NCBI GenBank assembly: GCA_001931875.2
Contig: MSJH02000504.1
Span: 124,001 to 188,000, forward strand
Direction of reading: 5' to 3'
Length of the DNA: 64,000 nt
From: Byssochlamys sp. IMV 00236
Lineage: Eukaryota; Ascomycota; Eurotiomycetes; Eurotiales; Thermoascaceae
Positions 47,596 to 54,707 of this stretch are shown here, one piece after another. A program made the translations under genes and the position numbers. Numbering within the stretch: position 1 is the first letter of the stretch; each line of letters starts with the position of its first letter. The notes beneath the pieces were generated by a model that searched no databases, had not been told where the DNA came from, and saw only the letters and a list, made by a program, of their open reading frames with translations.

Positions 47596-49308
47596 ATGAA
47601 ATTCGCCCGCCTCTCCCCTTCTCTCGCTCTGTTGTTACTGCAGGTCATTCCCGCGGCCATTGCTGAAGCAGTACCGGACAACGGTTTATCAACACCAACT
47701 GCCCTAGACCGCCGGGAAGCATCTTCAGCAGATGTGCCTCTTTCAGCACCAGAAATCTTAGCTTCACCCAAGGCAGCACCGAAGGGAACGCTGGACGCTC
47801 CGATAGATGGTAAGGATGGTCTGCCACACCAAGGTCCATGGGTCGAAACCGGCGCAGAACGAGACCGTAAGAAGGCAAAGGAGACGGATCCCAACGAGGC
47901 TTTGATAACGTCGGAAGAGAAGGTGACTACTGCGGAAAAACTGGCATCGGACGGCAAAGCCATTCCACACTCAAATGACGGTGTGATGGACGATCCACAT
48001 AGGTTGGGCCCCAAGGAAGGCACGCGGGGAACAGAGGGTGGTGTATCAGAGAAGAGCAAGACCAGCAAGCTTGTGTCCGACAAGGTGCCGGGAGCACCAA
48101 AGGAAGCTCCGCCACTTCCTCCCAGCGAGCAAGTCAAGATCTCGGCGGCGGATGACAGCTCCTCCAAGGATACGAAGACCGGTGATAGTGGAGCGACAAT
48201 CCTAGAGGTGAGAACAATGGAATGAACCATGATTGATCTTTCTTTTTCTGACCTCGATGATATAGAAGCCAGCGGATCTCCCCGAAAAGCCTCATGATAT
48301 CCCCCTTCCAAAATCTCCTGCGCCTGTGAAGGGCGATCAACTGGCTGTTGGCAGTCCCAAGTCGTCCAAGGGCAAATCTTCCTCGTTGGATGCGACAATC
48401 CCAATGGAGGAGAGCAGCGTTATTAGCCCCATTCACTCTCTTATTCTATCTTTTACAATGATAATCTTCTCCGAGATTGGCGACAAGACCTTCCTCGTCG
48501 CTGCACTGATGGCCATGCGCCACCCTCGCCTTCTCGTTTTCTCCGCTGCGTTCTCGGCGCTTATTACGATGACTGTCCTGTCCGCAGTGTTAGGACATGC
48601 AGTTCCTACGCTGATCCCAAAATCGTTCACCAACTTCCTTGCGGCCATCCTGTTCTTGGTTTTTGGTGCGAAGATGCTGAAGGAAGCTCGCGAGATGTCG
48701 CCGGATGAAGGTGTCGGCGAAGAAATGAGAGAAGTAGAGATGGAGCTGGAGGAGAAAGAGCAGCAACAGAGCCAGATGGGTCGACGCCGCTCTTCGATCA
48801 GCCCGTATGCCCTGGAGGCTGGGCGGGTAGGCGGACGACGCAAGTCGCGGTCTTCGGCTAACCGTCTGCCCTCGCCGCCTGACAGTCCATCATCCTCCTC
48901 TTCCCGGAGTTCTTCTCCCGCTCCCAGCGCTAGCTGGCGCAGCGTCCTCATCGGTTTTAACAATTTGTTTTCTTTCCTCCTGACTCCTGCTTGGGTGCAG
49001 ACGTTTGTCATGACGTTTCTAGGAGAATGGGGAGACCGCAGTCAGATCGCAACCATCGCCATGGCTGCTGGACAAGACTATTGGTGGGTTACGGTCGGAG
49101 CTATCAGCGGTCATGGTATTTGTACTGCGGCTGCAGTCATCGGAGGCCGAGCTATCGCAGGCAAAGTCAGCATGCGTGTCGGTATGTATATCTCATCCCA
49201 TTTTCTGTCATGTGCCGTTCACATACTGATCTTCATTCAGTGACCTTCGGCGGCGCTATCTCCTTCCTTATCTTCGGACTTATCTACTCTTTCGAAGCGA
49301 TATACTGA
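47596..49308 (+). CDS. GDT1/TMEM165-type (UPF0016) cation transporter
   Basis: Exons 47596..48207, 48266..49181 and 49241..49308 give 531 residues. The two family signatures are present: EIGDKT (Glu274) in the first hydrophobic half and EWGDRS (Glu458) in the second. Family members exchange Ca2+ or Mn2+ for protons in the Golgi and support glycosylation. Each half has about three spans; between them is a ~90-residue serine-rich, acidic and basic loop. A signal peptide (MKFARLSPSLALLLLQVIPAAIAEA) leads into ~220 lumenal, disordered, lysine/proline-rich residues before the first core span, much longer than in yeast Gdt1. The large minus-strand ORF over exon 1 is a shadow: this strand has the signal peptide, splice sites and family motifs. 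Confidence 0.92.
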
Positions 49309-50278
49309 GTTCGCGATGAAGCGTTGCTTCTTTACTCAAAAGTGCGTTGGAAGCAGGATTTAAATATAGACAGGACACGGTATCGGGTCTTTTCAGTTTT
49401 GTAGTACTTAGTCTTATTTCGTTTAATAACCGCACGGGTGCTTCTTTGCTCTTTTCTTGGTGTACGTTTTCTCTTTTATTCTCACAGGCACATTCGAACA
49501 ATTCGTGGTGACTGCTTAATGCGAGGATGGGACAATATAATTATAGACCAACCCTGGGAGGATGGTATCATGACCGAGGCACACAATGGAACTGCGGCAT
49601 CACAATATAATGAATCAGACAGTACGCAATGTAATTATAACATGACAGATCGTGGCGCTCAAAATTTAAGGGGGCATCATGTGGTCCCTAGATTTTCATT
49701 TGAAGTTATCCCACCGATCGGATCGGTCTAGTGAAAACTACCCAAATGCCACCAGCCGGAATCGAATTCCAACTACGGTCTCAGGTATTATTATAATCAG
49801 AGCCAGTTTATCTTCGACAGACAGGTCTCAGACAAGTCCTAGACAGGTGATGCAGATGACAACAGGCCTCTGTACGCATTTTGCCCATACTCCTCCGCAT
49901 ACCTAGTCTCTCTTCCTAGGTATCATCGGCCCCGACGACGCCGCCCTGGAGTATACATGTTAAGGCCGTTGGAACCTATGCTGTAGCTTGATGGTTGAGA
50001 AATCATATGTCCCTGTTCATTCTCAGTAGCTCTGAGCTCTCTAACAGTCCTCCCCTTCTCTTCATCTCATCGCGTGTCTGATCGCCACACATACATACAT
50101 TCAACTTGGAAGATAGATCAGATGGATCTTGACCATCTTACAGAAGAACAATCAGGTCGCAACTGCAAGATAGATGCCTCCATTAGCGCAACTTCACGAC
50201 CTCCAGTGAACTGTAGACACACTGTTGACGCAGTATCAGTATGACCTCCGGCGATCTCTTTCCTAACTTGGTAATTTC

Positions 50279-50350
50279 AAACCCTAACCCAATAACCCTT
50301 GGTGCCTTGTTGCCTGATATTGTTAGGGTTTAGGATTATGGGTTAGGGTT
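50279..50350. repeat. Inverted telomere-type repeats
   Basis: AACCCTAACCC (50280-50290) and a further TAACCC (50293-50298) on one side; TTAGGGTTTAGG (50323-50334) and GGGTTAGGGTT (50340-50350) on the other. The 11-nt outer arms are exact reverse complements separated by 49 nt. TTAGGG is the telomere unit of most filamentous ascomycetes. Confidence 0.9.
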
Positions 50351-50416
50351 ACGGTTATGGCTAAATTCTGATTGGTCAGAACCCCCTGATCCCCACTTTT
50401 ACTTGGCGTCCAGTGA

Positions 50417-50430
50417 TTAACCTAGGTTAA
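50417..50430. promoter_or_regulatory. Perfect 14-bp palindrome TTAACCTAGGTTAA
   Basis: A perfect dyad ~175 nt upstream of the ATG of the telomere-binding gene. It includes AACCTAGG, a one-base-deviant telomere half-unit, so it could be a dimeric protein site. Confidence 0.6.
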
Positions 50431-50604
50431 GAGTAGTTGTCCTCACGCTACAGCATCACCAGAACACAAGTGCGACCGACGATCATCAATAGAAGAACCT
50501 CCCCTATCGCTCGCCCCCTTTTTGTTTTCTTTCTCCTGGTCTTTTCTCCTGACTACCTTCTCTGTACTGGTTGGTTGGCAGCAGCATACTTTGCCGCGTC
50601 GTGG

Positions 50605-53600
50605 ATGTCGGCGTTCATCAACCCACTGGAGAAGTTTCGCCTCCGCTCCTCTCCGCCCGCGATGGCGCGCCCCGCGACGCGTCAATCCTCCGTTGCCAGC
50701 GACGGCATCAACATGGCCGCCACGGCAAAACAGGTCGATACTCCAACCTCAAAGAAGTTAAAAAACCGTTCATCGCGTTATAAATCACAGTCTATCAGTC
50801 CTTCAAGGCGGCGAACCACAAGAAGTCAGAGTCGCGAGCTCGAAGCAGTCGGCCTGAAGAGCCATGCTACAGAGATCGGGATCCCGAAAAGTTCGCTTGA
50901 CAGTCGACATGGCGCACGTGGGAAAGCTGAGAGGATGGCAAAGGGGAAGGGTAAGTTCCTATTGTTGCTTTAGAAATAATCATGTTCTGCCTTCGAACCT
51001 CGACAATGTTCTACACATACGCGTTGAAGGCGTCATCGTATAGTGTCATAATTCCCTTAGTGCAAAGTGGCTACCGTCATTGCCCGATCTTGTTGTTATG
51101 CTCTCATTCACACAGAGCGTTAATATGCTCCCTGGATGGAACGCTCATTGTCTGATAATTATTCACAGAACTTGCTGTTGTCGAAGAGGAGTCTCCAGTC
51201 CACTCTACGCGTCACTCCATGGTGCGTTCAGCGGACAATACCATCGTAGAAGAGCTCCCTGAGGAAACGGTAAACATCTCTGGGACGACCTTCCTCCCGA
51301 CTGATTCTGATCATGAGTCCGGGGAGATGGATCCATATATGATGGTCGAAGTGCTCCCTGATCTCCAAAGAACGGCATCCAGCGTTCTCGAGTTTCTGTT
51401 GCCTGCGGCACAGACTAGTACCGATCTCCTAGATCTGGCAAAGAAGCTGCAGGACCCAAAAAGTCCCCAGAGCAAAAAACTCGACCGTCTTCGATCAAAA
51501 TTCATAGGGGAAGCAAAGTACTTCGGTAACCAGACATACATCGATGTCGCGAACGTGTCACGGACCTTGCCATCCGTCAAGCCTCGTAGTATCCCCGGGT
51601 CAGCCCCAAAGCGATGGCGTCCAGATGGGATCCTATACAAGGCAAACTGCGCCCGACTCGCTCTGGAGGTCCTCACCTCTCGTCGCGCAACGGAGCATGT
51701 CCTCTACGATTTGGAAGGCAAATTCCCGATGCCTTTTATGAGCGGTTTGGTATTTCATGGCACCACCAAGGGAAACCCTACAAGTGGCAAGAGTACTACG
51801 CACCAACTGACTTCCGACCTGGCTCTGGACCTCAGGACACAGTTCCTTAAGATGAAGCTAGAAGCGCGAAAACTGGATGACTTCAACCCGGAAGGCGTCG
51901 TTGAGGACGTCTTTTTTAATGAACCACTTGCAGACGATGACGAATCCGGCGACCTGGAACTACGAGGCTTCAATCTGGCAGAGCTCCAAGATGAGGATGG
52001 GTGTCTACCCAAAGACATGAGGAAACAGGTGAAAGCACGCATCCACCATATCAGCCAGTACTTTACTGGCAGTCAACCTCCAGTGGAATATGAAGGCCTA
52101 GAGTCGGCATTCCCGTGGTCCGAATTCGTTGTCGCGGTAGGAAGATGGTTGTACAAAAGAAACGAGGAAATAGACAAAGAGCTGAAGGCCCAGCCATCCG
52201 TCGAGGATGTCCGTGATGTACTCGAACAGGAAATCACTAGACGGGGTAGTTTCGGCAGTTCTGCAGGGGAATCATCGCAGGAACAAGACGCAGGAACGCC
52301 CGTTAGAAAAGATCCTTCAATAGTTCATGAATCCCAGCCCCAGCAGCAACAAGATGTGGAAGGCTCCATCGGGGAACAGTCTTCACCACCTCGTGGATCC
52401 CAGCCGCAGCAACTTAGAAAGGAATTGCTGCCTGCCCCCGAGTTTGACTTGGGACGAGCAAAAGGGTGAGTTTTTCGATCAATCCCAAAGACGAGTGAAT
52501 TCCCCAAGACTGACAGGTTGTTCACGAACAATTAGTTCATGGTTCAAACGCTTCGCAGTTCAATATATTCACCGACAAGAGCCACGACGAGAATCCCTGA
52601 TTCGCGCCACCTCTGATGCGCCAGAGCCTAGTGACACATCTGATTTTGCAGGGTTCATTTCCCAGCACGCTGCCAAAGCATCTGCCACCAGTGTTGTTCC
52701 CGGCCGCAATGTTCTCACGGAAATATCTCTGAGACCACAGTCCAGAGATGGGCCCTCTATGTCGATGTCGCCCGATCCACGCCGCACCTTCCGGGGGCAA
52801 CCCGCGCCTCAACCTGAACAAATTACTGTTGCTGACTCTCAGTGGGAGATCACTCTAAATGATGATGATGATGACTGGGACCTACGACCTCCTAGTCCTT
52901 CTGCCCGCGCTGCTCCAAGAGATCCTAAGCGGCTGGCACCCGGGACTCGTAATGATAATAATAATACTACTACGAGCCAGAGCAGGGCTCGAGAACCTGT
53001 GGTGAATATTCCTTCCTCGAAGCAGATATTAGCCGCAGCTATGCAACACAAAGCTTCGTCTGGGAAAGACGAACGAGGCCCTTCTTTTATTGACCGCCAG
53101 GCAAATGCCCACAGGGTATCTCCAATAAATATTGGTTCTGAGACCCCTAGTGCTGGACCGAGCAACCCGAGGAAACGCAAACACACTGCTGATCACAGTG
53201 ATGAATCTGGCGAAGACGAGTTCAGCCAAGATCAGCGAGTTGTTGATGTGCGGCGGAAAAGAACCGAAAAGCCAATTCTCTCTCCGTCAAAGCGTGCAAG
53301 GCTTTTTGACTATGATGTGTCTGACAATGATGCTGAGAGGCAACTTCAAAGCACCCTTGATGAGACTGTGCGGCGAACTCCAGAGGTAGCATCCTCTCAT
53401 CGAAGGCCCAGTCAGGAGAGGACAACGCCTGTTGAAGATCGATCCCACCATCGTTCCCACATACGCAATGTGATGGATCGGTTTTCAGCACTCAGTGGGC
53501 AGCCAAGGACCCAGAAACCTCATCAGACATCCGAACCTAAACCTAAACCCGTTGAGAGCCGCCCTGCATATCCAGATTATTCTCGCGCCCGTCGACGATG

Positions 53601-53945
53601 GAGTAATGAAGAGAATGAGCGACTCATCTACCTGATCGAGAATTATGGCGTTAGTTGGGCAACACTCAAAAGAAAGGATGACGTGATGGAAGATGGGCCC
53701 AAGTTAGAGGACAGAGATCAGGTGCAACTGAAAGACCGAGCCAGAAATATCAAGATCGAATATATCAGGTTTGTGCCATCTCCCGTTGTTCTTCCTTTGT
53801 CATCTTGCAGTACGTACCTGGGTCGACTTTGTACTAATGAGAATTATCCAGGAACGGTTATGAGCTTCCCAGAAACTTTGACAAGGTCACGCTGAAAAAG
53901 ACGGATATCGATCGGCTTCGCGCTATCGGGCGAGAAGTTAGTTGA
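50605..53945 (+). CDS. TRF/Taz1-like telomere repeat-binding protein with C-terminal telobox Myb domain
   Basis: Exons 50605..50950, 51169..52465, 52536..53768 and 53852..53945 give 989 residues. An in-frame ATG at 50662 is an alternative start. The N-terminus is basic and serine-rich. Residues ~180-310 have a helical stretch (SSVLEFLLPAAQTSTDLLDLA, then RWRPDGILYKANCARLALEVL) that fits the dimerisation domain of fungal TRF-like proteins. A long disordered region includes a polyglutamine-type patch and a basic KRARLFDYD segment. The C-terminal Myb (~899-975) reads RRRWSNEENERLIYLIENYG...WATLKRKDD, then VQLKDRARNIK, the telobox signature. The last splice adds NGYELPRNFDKVTL. Such proteins bind double-stranded TTAGGG repeats and recruit shelterin partners. 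TTAGGG-type repeats lie in its own upstream region. Confidence 0.88.
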
Positions 53946-54593: not shown

Positions 54594-54707
54594 GCCCGGC
54601 TAGCCTAATGGTAAGGCGTTTGACTTCTAATCTCATGAATAGCTAAACAGCTAAAACATGACATATACGATATCAAAAGATTGTGGGTTCGATCCCCACG
54701 TCGGGTG
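54594..54707 (+). tRNA. tRNA-Arg(UCU) with a 42-nt intron
   Basis: Cloverleaf by eye. The acceptor arm GCCCGGC (54594-54600) pairs with GTCGGGT, discriminator G at 54707. The D arm is GCC...GGC. The anticodon stem TTTGA (54619-54623) pairs with TCAAA (54673-54677), and the loop CTTCTAA has anticodon TCT at 54626-54628. The T arm GTGGG-TTCGATC-CCCAC contains a good B box. The intron, about 54630-54671, sits one base 3' of the anticodon, the canonical position. A run of 14 T follows at 54745. It reads AGA codons. Confidence 0.92.

Follow-up and report, generated by a model that had tools for sequence, protein, structure and literature searches.

A rare TTAGGG dyad upstream of a divergent TRF/Tbf1-family gene of Byssochlamys and a second telomere-like cluster in the leader of its paralogue TBF1

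The closest described counterpart of the element reported here is the TBF1 gene of Saccharomyces cerevisiae, whose product, a TRF-family Myb factor, recognises several clustered TTAGGG motifs irrespective of orientation and spacing and also binds its own promoter; Tbf1 of Candida albicans requires the palindrome TTAGGG-N6-CCCTAA (PMC2834713; this and the other papers cited are drawn on through their available parts). Neurospora crassa, a fungus with TTAGGG repeats, has Tbf1 and in addition a Tbf1-like Myb protein, Tbf2, which binds TTAGGG directly; promoters are not treated in the available part of that report (PMC4650311). Here, we describe a dyad of telomere-like repeats that lies in a 64,000-nt stretch of Byssochlamys sp. 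IMV 00236 (contig MSJH02000504.1, 124,001 to 188,000; hereafter the window, whose own positions are given below) upstream of a TRF/Tbf1-family gene that we call tbf2-like. As at S. cerevisiae TBF1, TTAGGG motifs are clustered at the gene of a TRF-family Myb factor. The locus differs from the yeast gene in that the dyad stands at a divergent second paralogue of a filamentous fungus in which the leader of TBF1 has a cluster as well, and in that it is known from sequence alone. Plant TRB proteins are not known to have a TRFH domain. They resemble the present case in that short interstitial telomeric promoter motifs, the telo-boxes, are bound by Myb-like telomere proteins; they belong to another protein family, and the abstract of PMC10167121 does not tie telo-boxes to the factors' own genes.

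The 11-mers AACCCTAACCC (50280-50290) and GGGTTAGGGTT (50340-50350), 49 nt from each other, form an exact reverse-complementary pair, and extending each arm inwards by one base yields a perfect 12-nt inverted repeat with a 47-nt spacer. The ATG of the tbf2-like gene (50605) follows the end of the right arm at a distance of 255 nt. This arm is part of a degenerate array that reads TTAGGG-TTTAGGA-TTATGGG-TTAGGG-TTACGG-TTATGG, so that three TTAGGG motifs in mixed orientation fall inside 67 bp, an arrangement that fits the S. cerevisiae type of Tbf1 element, with clustered sites in a promoter. The first-pass annotation had described just such inverted repeats with further half-units, about 255 nt before the start codon, and both parts of that description hold.

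The element is real, rare and well placed. In the window, TTAGGG is under-represented (11 observed, 22.9 expected) and all three copies of TTAGGGTT lie at the dyad site; as a number, three is unremarkable, being reached in 15 of 100 shuffles, and it is the clustering that is unusual. All counts for the assembly refer to 47.4 Mb that apparently include a second organism and thus describe the mixture. GGGTTAGGGTT has 12 matches there, two of which are at the dyad site, against 27 for the reversed-pattern control, and the pair AACCCTAACCC-N34-64-GGGTTAGGGTT occurs at a single place, the dyad itself (control, 0); twelve randomly placed sites would be expected to give about 2e-4 pairs at ≤70 bp. 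Dinucleotide shuffling of the 1,295-bp intergenic region produced the dyad (N30-70) in 0 of 20,000 trials and any three TAGGG/CCCTA inside 80 bp in 299. The local score against (TTAGGG)n is 28 for the dyad promoter and 15 for the top of 342 other 500-bp blocks, a background made up of the window and 18 loci that takes in ten 11-mer loci and omits those fetched for paired TTAGGG. A chance telo-box, which had been offered as an alternative, is not borne out by the single occurrence in the assembly and the empty shuffles.

The ten other GGGTTAGGGTT places are divided between long open reading frames (ORFs; four) and the DNA between them (six). Those within ORFs fall in a polyketide synthase, a non-ribosomal peptide synthetase condensation domain, a short-chain dehydrogenase and one ORF without a family, and the families near these places comprise GH72, a 2OG-oxygenase (below cut-off), alkaline phosphatase, dynamin, SRR1 and MFS. 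Telomere genes were not found among the ORFs scanned near these places; the 20 ORFs scanned altogether include one, a telomerase fragment on contig C331, that is not near a GGGTTAGGGTT site.

New here is a TAGGG cluster in the leader of the paralogue TBF1, which is located on contig C511. On the sense strand the leader reads GCCCTACGCCCGCGCCCTACCCCTAAACCCT and this stretch ends 54 bp before the ATG (L022:4873-4843; C511:96842-96872). The ATG has a strong start context, and the protein model begins with MVSTRGSRLSSDGK, identical to the start of the Paecilomyces variotii No. 5 record P0042. In the 64-kb window plus 119 kb of other DNA, three TAGGG/CCCTA inside 80 bp were found at two places only, the TBF1 leader and the window dyad; the 119 kb represent 19 of 56 loci, and the 37 omitted ones include copies of both regions, low-GC contigs and 14 loci fetched for CCCTAA-N20-50-TTAGGG. 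Six of 68 TBF1 records, all from Penicillium (P0065, P0067, P0085, P0087, P0088 and P0091), are annotated with extra N-terminal residues, MRP(T/I)PKPSFLLxEVD(T/S)PT, a match to the translated leader of P. variotii. This leader, read in the corresponding frame, gives RPTPKPSFLLLEVRST and has no ATG before the upstream stop. Counted by eye, five of the six records have 16-18 residues between PKP and the following M, near the 55 nt of P. variotii, and the sixth, P0085, is apparently out of frame. Because the Penicillium extensions match the leader translation, conservation of the leader DNA between the two genera, telomere-like core included, looks like the simplest reading; the peptides hide third codon bases, so the Penicillium DNA motif is itself deduced. 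The start codons of the six records are possibly misannotated, with extensions that resemble translated leader; alternatively, Penicillium may have a short reading frame that is conserved.

We moderately favour the interpretation that the dyad is a genuine TTAGGG cluster in the proximal promoter of the tbf2-like gene, bound by a TRF-family Myb factor that adjusts transcription. We assign the site to the TRF family because the cluster is of the S. cerevisiae type and the C. albicans type is almost absent from the assembly: TTAGGG-N6-CCCTAA is absent at the dyad, and its N4-8 form occurs at one place elsewhere. Candidate binders would be TBF1, the protein made by the gene itself, or both, and the bound factor would bring the cell's TTAGGG-binding proteins under auto- or cross-regulation. 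Binding in the cell, the protein responsible for it and the direction of the regulation are points that we infer from this analysis. With clusters at both TRF-type genes, their proteins may control their own production. The self-control proposed by the first-pass annotation thereby appears reasonable in the light of the yeast precedent, and its statement that yeast Tbf1 binds promoter TTAGGG motifs agrees with PMC2834713. If the interpretation is right, even without length sensing, self-binding as in S. cerevisiae would extend to a further paralogue and a further class of fungi. The locus makes it testable how the amount of telomere-binding proteins in a cell is set and whether feedback is involved, and a rare, compact site of about 80 bp at one TRF-type gene together with a second at its paralogue offers a simple entry point in filamentous fungi. 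Among the open-access papers listed by the literature searches, no title concerned this promoter.

Several observations weigh against this interpretation. The window dyad is documented in one assembly alone, and Tbf1 of C. albicans, according to the available part of PMC2834713, does not bind its own promoter, which tells against the self-control part of the earlier proposal just as the S. cerevisiae gene and the TBF1 leader cluster speak for it. TERT has no cluster in the 500 bp upstream of an ATG estimated from the ORF (score 9). When all 56 loci were recounted, triples were present in seven of the 14 loci fetched for CCCTAA-N20-50-TTAGGG (L024-L037), and in two of these seven (L028 and L032) the triple is separate from the pattern used for fetching; TAGGG clusters are thus uncommon, yet not confined to TRF-type genes. 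Same-strand TAGGG triples over a short span have 46 matches in the assembly against 65 in the control, which makes them rare without overall enrichment; merged by eye, the 46 matches form about 22 places, one of which is the TBF1 leader. Likewise, CCCTAA-N20-50-TTAGGG is not enriched in the assembly (17 places, control 60). The remaining 62 of the 68 TBF1 records are uninformative on the leader, and the TBF1 comparison was made after the first dyad had been seen, with the cluster definition set afterwards. A wide TTAGGG-dyad regulon was rejected on the 17 to 60 ratio together with that of TTAGGG-N4-8-CCCTAA (1, control 7).

The degenerate six-unit array on the right side of the dyad is what would be expected of an old interstitial telomeric sequence, and the main rival explanation is that the site is such a sequence, neutral and decayed, left by break repair, a telomerase slip or duplication, and positioned here by chance. 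Documentation in one assembly and the TAGGG triples elsewhere in the assembly are compatible with this origin as well. However, the order CCCTAA...TTAGGG is the reverse of that produced by end-to-end telomere fusion, in which (TTAGGG)n precedes (CCCTAA)n, exact DNA of this kind is very rare (TTAGGGTTAGGG occurs once in the assembly), and a second cluster, with matching Penicillium records, is found at the TRF paralogue. We therefore regard a decayed remnant as a rather unlikely, though serious, competitor. The healed break that the first-pass annotation had considered is accordingly disfavoured in part, namely as far as an end fusion is concerned.

The arms can also be compared with the histone box of Schizosaccharomyces pombe, AGGGTTAGGGTTkTGAT, in which GGGTTAGGGTT in a promoter is bound by Teb1, a telomere-type Myb protein (PMC4839565); in the dyad GGGTTAGGGTT is present and the leading A is missing. 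The dyad could then be the site of a Tay1/Teb1-type double-Myb factor without any self-regulation. The left arm on the minus strand, TGGGTTAGGGTTTGAAATT, is similar to the box, Teb1 requires two repeats, AGGGTTAGGGTT (PMC4839565), and TTAGGG is bound by Neurospora Tay1. The S. pombe element is a single box at histone genes, served by a Tay1-family protein, whereas the histone loci of this assembly lack it: GGGTTAGGGTT occurs in none of the 12 PF00125 loci, and any TTAGGG in only one of them, where it precedes the histone match by about 1.3 kb (some of the 12 overlap, and some apparently derive from the low-GC second organism). A histone-box regulon was rejected on this ground. Since the TBF1 cluster, too, speaks for the TRF family, we consider a Tay1/Teb1-type site unlikely.

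The first-pass annotation had further proposed that long telomeres titrate the protein away from its promoter. As a telomere-length homeostat, the gene's own product would repress or activate the promoter, long telomeres would sequester the protein and promoter activity would report telomere length. The dyad architecture would permit this, and there is a model in human cells, in which telomere length partitions TRF2 between telomeres and promoters and occupancy at distal promoters is reduced in the presence of long telomeres (sequestration-partition model, PMC6264879; TERT, PMC12483519). The human case differs in that binding at TERT is mediated by a G-quadruplex and does not concern the factor's own gene; at 50270-50400 neither strand has a canonical G-quadruplex pattern (G3+ x4). 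Moreover, the assembly did not reveal the telomere repeat of this species (TTAGGG x3, 0 matches), and telomeres of filamentous fungi are short (PMC3603654), with 7-21 repeats in Aspergillus fumigatus (PMC8305976), so the titrating pool would be small. Titration of the protein by telomeres is thus only possible, and a homeostat built on it improbable. Likewise improbable is a paired feedback circuit of Eurotialean moulds in which both TRF-type paralogues would read the clusters in their own and each other's promoters; protein left free by the short telomeres would set the expression of the two genes, which would thus contain a gauge of telomere length.

The 11 nt of AACCCTAACCC equal the template of the A. 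fumigatus telomerase RNA gene, TER, in length (CUAACCCUAAC; PMC3603654), and the copy could in principle be such a template. No Rfam match to telomerase RNA was obtained in 49300-50700 with permissive thresholds or in the window with gathering scores. Furthermore, a TER of about 2 kb on the plus strand would run into the coding exons; that of A. oryzae has 2035 nt and is located near Zpr1 (PMC3603654). We regard a telomerase RNA gene as very improbable.

The first-pass annotation had pointed to Aspergillus and Penicillium for orthologues; the protein encoded downstream of the dyad is 99% identical to one from P. variotii (Eurotiales). Its predicted N-terminus, MSAFINPLEKF..., is similar to that of the Rasamsonia record P0003, MAFVNPLDKF..., and the P. 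variotii record P0001 starts at a later ATG (50662). Residues 898-973 match TBF1 8x6d (E 1.6e-9 to 3e-11) and include VQLKDRARN, a telobox helix of the VxLKDKxRN type, which confirms the telobox Myb domain reported earlier; the Pfam Myb score is below the cut-off (16.9 against 24.4 bits). The TRF-like helical domain, likewise reported, is supported by an AlphaFold2 model with a TRFH-type dimerisation domain. PF08558 has no match in the window protein, gives weak matches in seven of 28 relatives (best E 2.6e-4) and in the assembly matches TBF1 on C511 only. Because PF08558 is without a match and the fold and the Myb domain are present, the window protein is, on the modelled structure, a divergent TRF/Tbf1 relative and no Pfam TRF member. 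The gene is a divergent second copy, a status that Neurospora "Tbf2" appears to share, with the canonical TBF1 elsewhere. A search with a profile, aimed at remoter homologues, listed entries from Eurotiales and a few that name no organism; the orthology to Neurospora Tbf2 is therefore presumed from description (a Myb domain and weak Tbf1 similarity) rather than from alignment.

Table 1. Features of the dyad region and the tbf2-like gene (window positions)
Feature	Positions	Strand	Remark
GDT1-type antiporter gene, upstream neighbour	48326..49308	+	
Dyad left arm, AACCCTAACCCA (on the minus strand TGGGTTAGGGTT)	50280..50291	-	
Degenerate half-unit AATAACCCT adjoining the left arm	50291..50299	-	
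Degenerate array (G strand) of six TTAGGG-like units, overlapping the right arm	50323..50360	+	local telomere score of 28, peaking at 50363
Dyad right arm, TGGGTTAGGGTT	50339..50350	+	
CTGATTGGTCAG, holding a CCAAT-type box (CCAATCA on the minus strand)	50368..50379	-	proximal promoter landmark
tbf2-like exon 1, from start ATG 50605	50605..50950	+	splice sites by eye
tbf2-like exon 2, TRFH-like helical domain	51169..52465	+	splice sites by eye
tbf2-like exon 3, disordered linker and beginning of the telobox Myb domain	52536..53768	+	splice sites by eye
tbf2-like exon 4, remainder of the Myb domain and stop codon	53852..53945	+	splice sites by eye

Between the dyad and the gene, the box that we presume from its consensus to be of the CCAAT type and a pyrimidine-rich stretch around 50500-50550 fit a proximal promoter. 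The GDT1-type gene lies on the same strand and stops about 970 bp short of the dyad, which thus has no divergent gene to serve in that direction. A DNA hairpin formed by the arms is possible (z -2.3; 5 of 200 shuffles equally good), and the explanation can do without it. No related DNA was found in viral contigs.

P. variotii has a genome of about 30 Mb. The 47.4-Mb assembly exceeds this expectation and has a second telomerase RBD match on a 36%-GC contig (G000:C331:8528-8860; L041), and for these reasons probably contains a second organism. Histone genes are also present on two 35%-GC contigs, C725 and C342 (L043, L044). Loci L027, L029, L031 and L032 have about 20% GC, indicating very AT-rich blocks in the assembly. 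L012 (G000:C807:346600-352700; 37% GC) has ten scattered TTAGGG/CCCTAA in 6 kb and no triple inside 80 bp. Minisatellite-like arrays of TTAGGG units that resemble each other, perhaps one repeated element, occur at G000:C791:140624-140768, C797:118996-119139 and C815:4310-4421. Finally, downstream of the tbf2-like gene, the plus strand of the window carries a tRNA gene (54594-54707; Rfam, 55 bits), which was missed by ARAGORN with the bacterial code and which, at a length of 114 nt, probably contains an intron.
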